A stretch of DNA of 39,793 nucleotides from a virus. The stretch is from positions 1-39,793 of IMG/VR virus record IMGVR_UViG_3300046665_000767. One strand, given 5' to 3'. The translations under genes were made by a program, and so were the position numbers. How positions within the stretch are numbered: position 1 is the first letter of the stretch; the number at the start of each line of letters is the position of its first letter. The notes beneath the pieces are model-generated. The model saw only the letters and a program-made list of their open reading frames with translations, had not been told where the DNA came from and made no database searches. Below, piece after piece: positions 1,298 through 17,296 of the stretch.

Positions 1298-2101
1298 TCA
1301 CAAATCCCCGCCGCGCCAGATAACCCGGCCGATTACGCGGTGCTCATTAACTTCACTGCGCGAAAGCAGCAGATCCGGGTACGCGTCTTTGTCCTCGTTG
1401 TCGCTGCGGATAATCCAGCTGCCCAACGGGCTTTGAACCAGACGCTTTACGATGGAGCCTTTGTCGTTGCTGGTAAGGACGAAGACGTAGCCGTCCGCCG
1501 GCTCGGCGCGAGACGTGTCCACCAACAACACGTCATGGTCATCAATCGTTGGCCACATGCTGTCGCCATCTGCGTACATCACAAACAAGCTTTCAGCCTT
1601 GACGCCTTTAGTGCGCAGCCAATCAAGCTTGAAGGCGAGGGTGGCAAGGGTCTCGACGTGAGGGTTTTCGTAGCCGAAGCCGGCTGCAGCCCTGGCCGAA
1701 TATTGCGGGATATGGGCGTATCGATCTTCGGTCGCCTCAGCGTCCCCGCCGACAGGGAAGGGCGTGCTGGCGACACTGGCACTATCAGTCGGAGACGCCG
1801 TGCTTGTTACTCGCTTGATTCCGCCAGCCAGAGTAGGGCTGATCTTCCACGGCTCTATGTCGAGTACCTCGGACAGCTTTATAAGGGCATCCAGGTTTAA
1901 CGCCACCTTCCCATTCAGATACTGGCTGACAGTGCTCTGGGGAGAATTCCAGCCGCATTTTGCCCCAACCTCGCTCTGATTGAGTGTCGGCCGTTCGCCT
2001 TTGTCTTTGGATTCAGCGACCTTTCGCAGATACGCCTTCTTGAGGCGCTCGGCATCGTCGAGCTGATCTTGAGTGAGTGGGGTTCGGATAGGTTTGCTCA
2101 T
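1298..2101 (-). CDS. cI: CI-type prophage repressor (XRE HTH plus S24 peptidase)
   Basis: 267-aa repressor that keeps the prophage silent. The N-terminal part (about residues 15-85) is an XRE helix-turn-helix domain (NQSEVGAKCG...STVSQYLNGK). After an Ala/Ser/Thr-rich hinge, residues about 130-267 form a LexA/S24 autoprotease: nucleophile S181 in GDSMWPTI, catalytic K219 in SIVKRL, and a probable self-cleavage bond A140-G141 in ARAAAGFG. SOS/RecA-stimulated self-cleavage is therefore expected, giving DNA-damage induction. It is transcribed divergently from cro. No Shine-Dalgarno sequence precedes the ATG, and the predicted promoter places the transcript start almost on the ATG, as with the lambda pRM message. 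Family assignment is firm; induction behaviour follows from the family. Confidence 0.93.
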   Translation of the reverse strand: MSKPIRTPLTQDQLDDAERLKKAYLRKVAESKDKGERPTLNQSEVGAKCGWNSPQSTVSQYLNGKVALNLDALIKLSEVLDIEPWKISPTLAGGIKRVTSTASPTDSASVASTPFPVGGDAEATEDRYAHIPQYSARAAAGFGYENPHVETLATLAFKLDWLRTKGVKAESLFVMYADGDSMWPTIDDHDVLLVDTSRAEPADGYVFVLTSNDKGSIVKRLVQSPLGSWIIRSDNEDKDAYPDLLLSRSEVNEHRVIGRVIWRGGDL

Positions 2102-8075: not shown

Positions 8076-8097
8076 GGCCGCTTACCCGGCCTTTTTT
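8076..8097 (+). terminator. Intrinsic terminator ahead of the lysis genes
   Basis: GGCCG / CGGCC stem, CTTACC loop, six T residues. Together with the terminator at 7667 it forms a double barrier that late transcription must pass to reach the holin. The rest of the 7926-8128 interval holds no gene that I can support. Confidence 0.75.
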
Positions 8098-8128
8098 AAT
8101 TCAGCTCCCTTCAGGGGAGGACAGTCGG

Positions 8129-8455
8129 ATGTCCAACATGCCCGAGAAAAACCCTGATTTCTGGGCGCAAGTCTGGATCGTCGTCACGACGCCGCTTTGG
8201 CAGGGCGCAATCATGTCGGCAACCATCTCGATGCTGCGCGTCCTCTATGAAGGGAAAGAAGCAAACAAGCGCCGCGTCTTGCTCGAAGCGCTCATGTGCG
8301 GCGGCTTGAGCTTGTCGGCCAGTAGCGTCATCGAGTGGATGGCCTGGCCTTCCAGTCTTTCGGTGGGAGCGGGCGGCGCCATCGGCTTCATCGGAGTGAC
8401 CGCCATTCGTGAATTGATCATCAGGTTTCTCGGTCGCAAGGCGGATTCAGCATGA
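8129..8455 (+). CDS. Holin, lambda-family (phage holin 3 type)
   Basis: 108 aa. The motif PLWQGAIMSATISMLRVLYEGKE followed by two further hydrophobic stretches (LLEALMCGGLSLSASSVIEWM and SVGAGGAIGFIGV) is typical of the lambda-type holin family found in Pseudomonas phages. It forms the inner-membrane lesion that triggers lysis. Start fixed by GGGGAGG 8 nt upstream. Coupled by an ATGA overlap to the spanin gene. Confidence 0.88.
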   Translation: MSNMPEKNPDFWAQVWIVVTTPLWQGAIMSATISMLRVLYEGKEANKRRVLLEALMCGGLSLSASSVIEWMAWPSSLSVGAGGAIGFIGVTAIRELIIRFLGRKADSA

Positions 8456-15312: not shown

Positions 15313-15801
15313 ATGATCATTGTTGAGCACGGCGAAGGTAACGACAGCGCTGCGAACAGCTACGCCGATCTCGAATCGCTGCTTTTCCATGGCAGCTATT
15401 ACCGGTATCCGATACCTGACAGCACTGAATGTCAGATCGATTACCTGATCCGGGCGTGCGCAGCTATGGATCGCATGCAGTGGAAAGGTCACCCAGCGTT
15501 TTTGCATCAGCCGCTGGCCTGGCCTCGCGCCGATATCGTCATGAATGGCGAGTTCCTAAGCAAGACGTCTATCCCGTACGGTATCCGGCACGGGCAGGTC
15601 ATGCTCGCGATTGAGATGTACGCGGCCGATAGGGGAATCCCTGTCGCGTTGCCTACTTACGGATACGACGGCGACAAGGTCGTGCCGCTTATGCGCAGCA
15701 CTGCCAAGGTCAATCTCGGTCCGCCGCTATGGGTGCCGAGCAGGACGCAGTTTGCTGATTATCTGGTGATGCGAGGGCTATCGGTGGTCATGATTCATTG
15801 A
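15313..15801 (+). CDS. DnaT-like / head-tail connector-type protein
   Basis: 162 aa. NSYADLESL ... ECQIDYLIRACAAMDRMQWKG ... QPLAWPRADIVMNGEFLSKTSIP matches the phage family labelled putative DnaT-like ssDNA-binding protein, which in tailed phages is mostly a head-completion or connector component. Here it lies before the scaffold and capsid, not after them, and a second connector candidate occurs at 18648. The structural role is inference. Confidence 0.7.
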   Translation: MIIVEHGEGNDSAANSYADLESLLFHGSYYRYPIPDSTECQIDYLIRACAAMDRMQWKGHPAFLHQPLAWPRADIVMNGEFLSKTSIPYGIRHGQVMLAIEMYAADRGIPVALPTYGYDGDKVVPLMRSTAKVNLGPPLWVPSRTQFADYLVMRGLSVVMIH

Positions 15802-15826
15802 GCAGGCCCGCAAGCGCTGATATAAA
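15798..15826 (+). promoter_or_regulatory. Putative sigma-70 promoter of the 15848 accessory gene
   Basis: -35 TTGAGC (15798-15803), exact 17-nt spacer, -10 TATAAA (15821-15826). It overlaps the stop codon of the upstream gene. Predicted start of transcription near 15833, inside the hairpin that covers the ribosome-binding site. Confidence 0.65.
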
Positions 15827-15827
15827 G

Positions 15828-15845
15828 CCGCTCTTTAAGGAGCGG
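15828..15845 (+). promoter_or_regulatory. Hairpin hiding the ribosome-binding site
   Basis: CCGCTC / GAGCGG perfect stem with a TTTAAG loop. AAGGAG (15837-15842), the Shine-Dalgarno of the 15848 gene, is split between the loop and the 3' arm. Read-through RNA would contain both arms; RNA from the adjacent promoter would lack most of the 5' arm. Confidence 0.65.
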
Positions 15846-15847
15846 TC

Positions 15848-16471
15848 ATGAACCTATTGCTTGGGATTATCGCTGTAGTGGCAGTCTTCATCAGCGGGCT
15901 GCTTGGCTTGACCGCCGGGATAAATCTAAACCCTATATCCACAGTTAGCTACGTTCCGAACTGGGGCAGTCTAGGGGATTGGGTGTCAGGCATTGGCGCT
16001 TTTCTAGCAATCATTTCCAGCTTCATTCTAGTTAAGCGCAACGAAGAGCAGCAGCGGGATCGCGAGCGTGAAAGATTCCTCGTTGATCAATTCGGATCCT
16101 TACTTCATGTATCTATCACGGTCGTTTCAACCGGATACCTGCCGTGCGCCATCAAAGGGGTCTTTATTGAAAGCCTCAGCAAAAGCGCTGTTCCTCTGCA
16201 CCGGTATCTGCCGGAAGATGTAACGGTAGTGATGCCTCAGCGCCTCGAAAGCAAAGCCGATATTCACTTTTCCTGGAGATTTGATCAGCTAGAGCCACTT
16301 CTTCAAGCGATTTCATGGATGAGGGTGGGGAGACTAGAAGACCTGACCATCTTGGTCGTCACCTCCATAGGCGAAGATCGGACGCCAATTACGGCTGAGG
16401 TCGCCGAAATCCTTCTAGGTGTTGCTCGCGGGGCAGGGATAGCAGTACTTGAAACCGACGAACCATTTTAA
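15848..16471 (+). CDS. Membrane-anchored accessory (moron) protein, unknown
   Basis: 207 aa. Two N-terminal hydrophobic helices (about 3-25 and 46-62, WVSGIGAFLAIISSFILV) are followed by a charged coil (KRNEEQQRDRERERF) and a soluble domain of about 130 residues. Similar topology is seen in uncharacterised membrane-tethered sensors or exclusion proteins, but I do not recognise the family. It sits between head genes with its own promoter and terminator, and its base composition looks more AT-rich than its neighbours, all marks of a recently acquired moron likely expressed in the lysogen. Confidence 0.75.
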   Translation: MNLLLGIIAVVAVFISGLLGLTAGINLNPISTVSYVPNWGSLGDWVSGIGAFLAIISSFILVKRNEEQQRDRERERFLVDQFGSLLHVSITVVSTGYLPCAIKGVFIESLSKSAVPLHRYLPEDVTVVMPQRLESKADIHFSWRFDQLEPLLQAISWMRVGRLEDLTILVVTSIGEDRTPITAEVAEILLGVARGAGIAVLETDEPF

Positions 16472-16493
16472 TTTTCACTACCAAACCACCAAA

Positions 16494-16517
16494 CCTCGGC
16501 CATGCCGGGGTTTTTTT
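16494..16517 (+). terminator. Intrinsic terminator of the 15848 unit
   Basis: CCTCGGC / GCCGGGG 7-bp stem (one T-G pair), CAT loop, seven T. A second small hairpin (CCCGC AAA GCGGG, 16521-16533) follows at once. The head operon must be antiterminated, or read through, to reach the scaffold and capsid. Confidence 0.85.
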
Positions 16518-16558: not shown

Positions 16559-17296
16559 GTGGCAGACGAAAATCAGATTGATCTTGAAGACCCGGCGATC
16601 AAAACCGCCATTTCCGCCGCCGTTGAGGCTGCGACCTTGGGGCTCAAGAACAAGAATTCAGAGCTTCTCGGCTCTCTCCGGACCACCAAAACCGAACTGG
16701 ACGGCTTCAAGACCCAGTTCGAGGGCCTGGATATCAATGCGGTGAAGGGCCTGCTGAACAAGGTGGGCCAAGACGAAGAGACCCGCCTGCTCGCGGAAGG
16801 CAAGCTCGACGAAGTGATCAATAAGCGCACCGAGCGCCTGCGTGGCGACTACGACACCAAGCTGGCAGCCGAGAAAACTCGCGCTGACAAGGCCGAGGCC
16901 TTCGCTGCCAAGTACAGCGATAAGGTGCTGGCCGACTCCATTCGTGCTGCCGCCATCAAGGCCGGCGCTCTCCCTGAAGCTGCCGAGGACATCATTCTCC
17001 GCGCCCGGGGTACCTTCAAACTCAGTGAAGACGGCGAGGCCATTGCCACCGACCGGGACGGCGAAGTCGTTTACGGCAAGGACGGCAAGACCCCTCTGTC
17101 GCCGCTCGAATGGGCGGAATCGCTGCGTGAATCAGCAACACACCTTTGGCCAAGGGCTCAGGGTGCCGGACAGACCGGCGACAACGGTGGCAAGGCTACC
17201 AAAAAGTGGGGGGAGCACACCGAACAAGAGCGCGCCGCGCTCGCACGGGACAACCCCGAAGCATACAAGCGACTCAAAGCCACTCAAGGAACCTAA
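16559..17296 (+). CDS. Capsid scaffold protein
   Basis: 245 aa, very charged and helical: a long coiled-coil region (about 20-130, LKNKNSELLGSLRTTKTEL, TERLRGDYDTKLAAEKTRAD) and an acidic, Gly-rich C-terminal half, as in scaffolds that direct capsid assembly. It is directly upstream of the major capsid gene. GTG start chosen because AAGGGG lies 8 nt before it; a longer ORF from 16502 would begin within the terminator. Confidence 0.82.
   Translation: MADENQIDLEDPAIKTAISAAVEAATLGLKNKNSELLGSLRTTKTELDGFKTQFEGLDINAVKGLLNKVGQDEETRLLAEGKLDEVINKRTERLRGDYDTKLAAEKTRADKAEAFAAKYSDKVLADSIRAAAIKAGALPEAAEDIILRARGTFKLSEDGEAIATDRDGEVVYGKDGKTPLSPLEWAESLRESATHLWPRAQGAGQTGDNGGKATKKWGEHTEQERAALARDNPEAYKRLKATQGT

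Follow-up and report, generated by a model that had tools for sequence, protein, structure and literature searches.

A putative promoter-in-hairpin leader before a moron gene in the head operon of a lambda-like temperate phage

A moron gene in the head operon of a lambda-like temperate phage was found to carry a leader that combines a host-type promoter with a hairpin over the ribosome site. A putative promoter-in-hairpin switch as in gene e of phage T4 is well supported here by the sequence, its computed fold and comparative tests. The moron is probably translationally insulated, i.e., its translation would proceed mainly from self-started RNA, while the late read-through RNA would hide the Shine-Dalgarno (SD) sequence. 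The parallel with T4 gene e had been drawn in the first-pass annotation and holds, the layout of promoter and hairpin being the same (PMC3014915).

The Moron and Its Leader

The window, i.e., the whole stretch of DNA that was analysed (39,793 nucleotides), is by gene content a fragment of a lambda-like temperate phage. It contains genes for a CI-type repressor, O- and P-like replication proteins, NinB, NinG, a holin, and Rz, as well as the virion genes for terminase, portal, MuF-like head protein, head-tail adaptor, scaffold, capsid, and tail. The moron gene (15848-16471) lies between the adaptor gene and the scaffold gene, all on one strand. The features referred to below are the following.

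1298..2101, minus strand: CI-like repressor (Peptidase_S24), marking the temperate lifestyle
15313..15801, plus strand: upstream late gene (DnaT_2 / head-tail adaptor Ad1-like), which stops 26 nt short of the hairpin
15798..15803, plus strand: weak -35-like hexamer TTGAGC (4/6), which shares bases with the upstream gene's stop codon
15818..15826, plus strand: extended -10 TGATATAAA, identified by sequence; a TGn-type -10 is present in 34 related leaders
15827..15834, plus strand: 5' arm (8 nt) of the SD-sequestering hairpin, between the -10 and the expected start
15833, plus strand: transcription start as predicted by promoter geometry, about 7 nt past the -10
15837..15842, plus strand: Shine-Dalgarno AAGGAG, identified by sequence; ATG at 15848
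15839..15846, plus strand: 3' arm of the hairpin, containing most of the Shine-Dalgarno (sequence and fold)
15848..16471, plus strand: moron; the 207-aa protein has a beta-rich C-terminal domain after two predicted TM helices (2-25, 39-73)
16491..16513, plus strand: intrinsic terminator 5' of the scaffold gene, also present in empty sites
16559..17296, plus strand: head scaffolding gene, 3' of the moron

The motif evidence indicates that the moron has its own promoter. TGA at 15818-15820 directly precedes TATAAA (15821-15826), which makes an extended -10 (TGn), and the spacing between TTGAGC and TATAAA is 17 nt. The motif TGNTATAA occurs only once in the window, both strands counted, at this very element. 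A consensus promoter scan of the window did not list the moron promoter, since the scan requires T as the last -10 base and TATAAA lacks it. The T4 late promoter TATAAATA is not the element present; the window has TGATATAAA, a host-type extended -10, in a phage that is lambda-like.

The hairpin, GCCGCTCT/TTAA/GGAGCGGT, occupies 15827-15846 directly after the -10. Its energy is -13 kcal/mol, with a z of -2.3 against dinucleotide shuffles, 5 of 200 of which fold equally well. The SD accessibility of the moron (0.23) is only the tenth lowest among the 38 gene starts in the window, and is ordinary for this G+C-rich phage. The Rfam 15 cis-regulatory RNA families gave no match at the leader, although hits with E up to 1 were admitted. 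The evidence from the window alone that the leader exceeds chance is only moderate. With a start near 15833, about 7 nt past the -10, at most 2 nt of the 8-nt 5' arm would be left in the RNA. The first-pass annotation was right about the coordinates of the hairpin over AAGGAG and about its geometry relative to the promoter, and its placement of the start where the 5' arm ends fits the promoter geometry. Elsewhere in the window, at the holin gene start (8094-8129), a hairpin (CTCCC-TTCA-GGGGAG) immediately 5' of the apparent start at 8129 pairs the SD GGGGAGG.

The moron protein gave no confident sequence match in Pfam, PHROGs, NCBIfam, PADLOC, or PDB. AlphaFold2 modeled two long N-terminal helices and a beta-sandwich-like domain with a mean pLDDT of 86, low at about residues 21-40, for which Foldseek returned weak beta-sandwich matches and nothing stronger. 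The N-terminus is conserved among relatives (GLTAGINLNP..STV..VPNWGSLGDWVSG), the C-terminus far less so, and several kinds of C-terminal domain were found behind one leader and TM module. Such a build, with a conserved TM module and a variable C-terminus, would be in keeping with a role at the surface or in exclusion, the specificity varying between phages.

Insertion Site and Sister Genes

The site 5' of the scaffold gene is an insertion hotspot, both occupied and empty in close relatives, and this presence or absence at the same site confirms that the gene is a moron, as the first-pass annotation had it. In the empty sites (Medea1, L049; L118, L126, L134, L170 and others) the upstream stop codon is followed by the terminator and then the scaffold gene. 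A terminator of its own is usual, though not obligatory, for a moron; the one that had been credited to this gene stands at the same place in phages without it and therefore belongs to the phage backbone, i.e., to the head operon, so that the gene has none of its own. The backbone terminator would still end the local moron transcript. Transcripts of the late genes have to cross this terminator whether or not the moron is present, which suggests antitermination at this point.

At the same hotspot L120 (about 2645-2721; also L121 and L173) carries an unrelated moron for an acidic protein of 45 aa. Its leader consists of TTGCCG-17-TATAAA with an SD-covering hairpin directly after, the energy of which falls from -12.5 to -3.7 kcal/mol with an RNA start at +7.

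Three sister genes at this site (L129 2316-2909, L190 2200-2793, and L174 2108-2878) have a different N-terminus and no promoter-hairpin leader, and their start codons adjoin the upstream stop codon. Scans of their leaders yielded promoter matches at chance level only, and the genes are apparently expressed late. Their C-terminal domains resemble those of L133/L020 and L180, so by these genes the leader and TM module appear to have been swapped against the C-terminal domain.

Leaders of Related Genes

Relatives were gathered by protein search, by a profile search of viral contigs, and by a search with the downstream scaffold protein. Altogether 40-odd related genes were found, some of them about 20-35% identical overall to the protein of the window. 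The loci found via the moron protein or the scaffold gene provided 34 leaders, 23 dissimilar ones of which were used in the tests. A tblastn search of the moron protein against annotated phages gave no match, a DNA-level search of annotated phages matched the scaffold region and nothing else, and 369 genomes drawn from the class of the Methylotenera MAG contained no further relatives. Pseudomonas phage PseuP_222 (L048, 5370-5975) has a diverged relative with the same promoter-hairpin leader; it is annotated as 'pilin', which looks doubtful.

Among 20 carrier records, the window included, 15 contain an integrase and 19 a CI/LexA-type (S24-type) repressor; the carriers of the promoter-hairpin leader are temperate phages.

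The leaders share a common plan, in which TGnTATAA or TGnTAnAnT is followed by the 5' arm, a short loop, and a 3' arm with the Shine-Dalgarno. Examples are L007 (TGGTATAAC GCCTCC tttcaaac GGAGGC), L142 (TGATATAAC GCTCCT ctttttt AGGAGC) and, with G-U pairs, L040 (TGTTATAAC GCTTTTC ttggaat GGAGAGT) and L034 (TGGTAGAGT GCCGACTTT ctttttc AGAGGTTGGC). L025, alone among the 23, lacks a good hairpin, and in several other leaders the hairpin is weak. The closest relatives (L001-L004 and L013-L017) have a diverged leader outside the tested set, where TTAAAG followed by a TGACGA/TCGTCG or CGACGA/TTGTCG hairpin was seen by eye.

The conserved part of the promoter is the extended -10. The -35 is barely conserved: in the related leaders it scores on average 3.0/6, compared with 2.3 at random places, and about 2/6 where its position falls inside the upstream coding sequence. 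The promoter had been called good in the first-pass annotation, but its -35 (4/6) is poor and hardly conserved.

MAFFT alignment left the short, variable arms out of register, and swap, shuffle, and strand tests were therefore used in place of a covariance model. The mean hairpin energy of the 23 dissimilar leaders was -8.81 kcal/mol. When the 3' parts were exchanged between phages the mean was -6.72 (SD 0.46), and when the 5' part was shuffled it was -5.01 (SD 0.45); in neither case were any of 500 trials as good. The leaders are related to each other, and the comparative tests are thus not fully independent.

The register of the hairpin is fixed as well. The 5' arm corresponds to nucleotides 1-7 after the -10 (medians of the 23 dissimilar leaders), bases that a promoter leaves out of its RNA, and in the related leaders TGNTATAA or TGnTAnAnT stands immediately 5' of it. 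In 901,583 bases, i.e., the window and the partly redundant loci, TGNTATAA was found 44 times on the gene's strand, every time in a moron leader, and never on the other strand, where about 8 and 7, respectively, were expected by chance; the loci overlap and are related, and these counts are not independent events. The RNA start was also scanned over the related leaders. The probability of the SD being unpaired was 0.20-0.23 (about 0.21) for all starts from -40 to +2 and climbed across starts +3 to +8 to about 0.5. For the window the value rose from 0.23 to 0.69, and the SD was exposed once the RNA began at about +5 or beyond. A start at +7, as expected from the -10, lies slightly past the computed switch point. 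Since the fusion is kept in more than 20 different versions in related phages, the leader appears to be a real device and no chance hairpin.

Proposed Mechanism and Alternatives

The promoter motif, the hairpin with its fixed register, the co-variation of the arms, the sense-strand asymmetry described below and the temperate carriers were all shown by computation, and from them we infer the exact start, the strength of repression, the expression in the lysogen and the low yield per late mRNA. According to the proposed mechanism, the moron would carry its own sigma-70 extended -10 promoter, with the 5' arm fitted into the short gap from the -10 to the start and thus nearly absent from the local RNA. 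This RNA would start at or just past the arm and have a leader of about 15 nt with a free ribosome site. Read-through RNA from the upstream head genes would include the 5' arm and have its ribosome site hidden. With the read-through RNA masked and the local RNA open, the output would be set mainly by the local promoter. In the lysogen, where the late genes are off, the moron could be on, and after induction the abundant late mRNA would contribute little moron protein.

The first-pass annotation had gone further and claimed silence during lytic growth, for which we found no support. The local promoter may keep firing on many replicated genomes unless it is occluded by late transcription, so the hairpin by itself would remove the late read-through contribution only. 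In addition, sister genes with the same C-terminal domain and neither promoter nor hairpin look late-expressed, which suggests that a protein of this kind can sometimes be made late without harm.

The distance between the upstream stop codon and the hairpin bears on a different explanation, translational coupling, in which translation of the moron on the late mRNA would need ribosomes finishing the upstream gene; the moron would then be a late product and its promoter secondary. In about ten leaders (e.g., L005, L007, L012, and L048) the upstream stop TAA lies inside the -10 and ends 2 nt 5' of the arm, within reach of the terminating ribosome, which could therefore open the hairpin on the late mRNA. 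The promoterless sister genes at the same site, which begin beside the upstream stop codon, would also fit. In the window and most other TGNTATAA leaders, however, the gap is 23-44 nt (26 nt in the window), too far for a terminating ribosome given its footprint size, yet the register of hairpin and -10 is kept. We consider coupling unlikely as the main role of the leader.

The arms could also act as a DNA element at the start, either a repressor operator or a G+C-rich stringent-type (growth-rate) discriminator as in rRNA promoters, with the SD pairing as a by-product. A palindrome across the start site is a common operator layout, and G+C-rich bases after the -10 are frequent (GCCACCT, GCGCCTC), although some arms are not G+C-rich (GCTTTTC, GTTCCAT). 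The arms differ between phages and pair best with their own partners. Furthermore, G-U accounts for 29 of the 149 arm pairs, and folding favours the sense strand over its complement (-8.1 vs. -5.6; 19 of the 23 leaders, p 0.002), none of 200 shuffled null sets reaching the observed mean difference. This asymmetry is as expected for a selected RNA with G-U pairs and not for a DNA palindrome; an operator would need neither the G-U pairs nor the better fold of the sense strand, and a role of this kind seems quite improbable.

That the hairpin is incidental, or a mere mRNA stabiliser or spacer with the promoter alone governing expression, would agree with the weak single-sequence signal (z -2.3) and with the predicted pairing of the SDs of many genes in the phage of the window, but is contradicted by the arm-swap, shuffle, and strand tests over the 23 dissimilar leaders and by the constant position of the 5' arm, downstream of the -10 and ahead of the start, and is thus very improbable.

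Relation to Known Systems

In T4 gene e (lysozyme), soc, 49, and I-TevI, the ribosome site is locked in a hairpin on the long read-through RNA, while a promoter within the 5' side, as in gene e, yields an arm-less, well-translated RNA; similar leaders occur in related phages (PMC3014915). The moron shares the SD hairpin on the long RNA, according to computed folding, and the promoter whose RNA would lack the 5' arm, according to the sequence of 34 leaders and a predicted start. In contrast, gene e relies on phage late promoters (TATAAATA) and is silent early and on late, whereas the moron has a host-type extended -10 and resides in temperate phages. Since it is the late RNA that reads through into the moron, its timing would be the opposite of that of gene e.

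Closer in setting are the hairpin-regulated homing endonucleases I-TevI, I-TevII, I-TevIII, segB, and mobE of Aeh1, which are likewise inserted in phage operons with the site hidden on the operon RNA and free on the RNA from their own promoter (PMC2988022). The principle itself is thus known from T4 gene e, soc, 49, and I-TevI (PMC3014915; PMC2988022). The endonucleases differ from the moron in belonging to lytic T4-like phages with phage late promoters, whereas the moron encodes a membrane protein behind a host-type promoter. The principle is shared also by the fold-back inhibition of IS10, where a hairpin formed by transposase read-through RNA alone guards against outside promoters. The moron, too, would be a mobile gene shielded by a hairpin that only read-through RNA forms; IS10 encodes a transposase and has its arm within the terminal repeat, while the arm of the moron lies between -10 and start, in phage head operons.

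The Tab moron of Pseudomonas phage JBD26 is situated in the late region of the prophage and is expressed constitutively from its own promoter (PMC10884400). It resembles the moron described here as a late-region moron with its own promoter, but it is on the opposite strand and its action on its own phage is removed by an anti-Tab protein instead of an RNA hairpin. In the open literature, subscription papers being outside the search, no direct precedent for the design was found in prophage genes. Novel features are that the extended -10 is of host type, that the setting is temperate and the timing would run the other way round, and that the leader is widely conserved within a single moron family.

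A tentative extension, for which the acidic moron of L120 and the leaders of L276, L281, and L296 serve as pointers, is that promoter and SD hairpin form a portable, read-through-proof cassette by which unrelated inserted genes of temperate phages possibly keep their output independent of the operon around them. In the latter three loci, consensus-like promoters (TTGACA or TTGACG, and TATAAA/TATAAT) followed directly by an SD-covering hairpin precede other phage genes. Scans of viral contigs for the leader pattern in front of other genes mostly yielded no more than chance would; of the 51 unrelated hits that had an ORF, 4 had a -35 of at least 5/6 (about 1 expected) and 10 had TGn (about 4 expected).

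Two further arrangements were noticed in the collected loci. The same order of promoter and SD hairpin stands before a RelE-like toxin gene in L252/L263/L275. In L203, L204, L212-L215, L217, L219, L229, L239, L240, L242, and L243, HNH-like genes (MEDVAIPYADKERQ...) stand directly behind TGATATAAG and a hairpin resembling a terminator, GGCTCC-TACG-GGAGCC-T6, which reaches the ATG.

Implications

All morons face the problem that genes of benefit to the lysogen lie inside a late operon and have to escape late expression. One of the known answers is the opposite strand combined with a counter-protein, as in Tab/anti-Tab. At about 30 bp, a hairpin with its 5' arm in the gap from -10 to start would be an inexpensive solution. 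The signature of TGNTATAA followed by an anti-SD arm could be used to find other lysogen-expressed genes, and the leader would extend the principle of T4 gene e to the host-type promoters of temperate phages.
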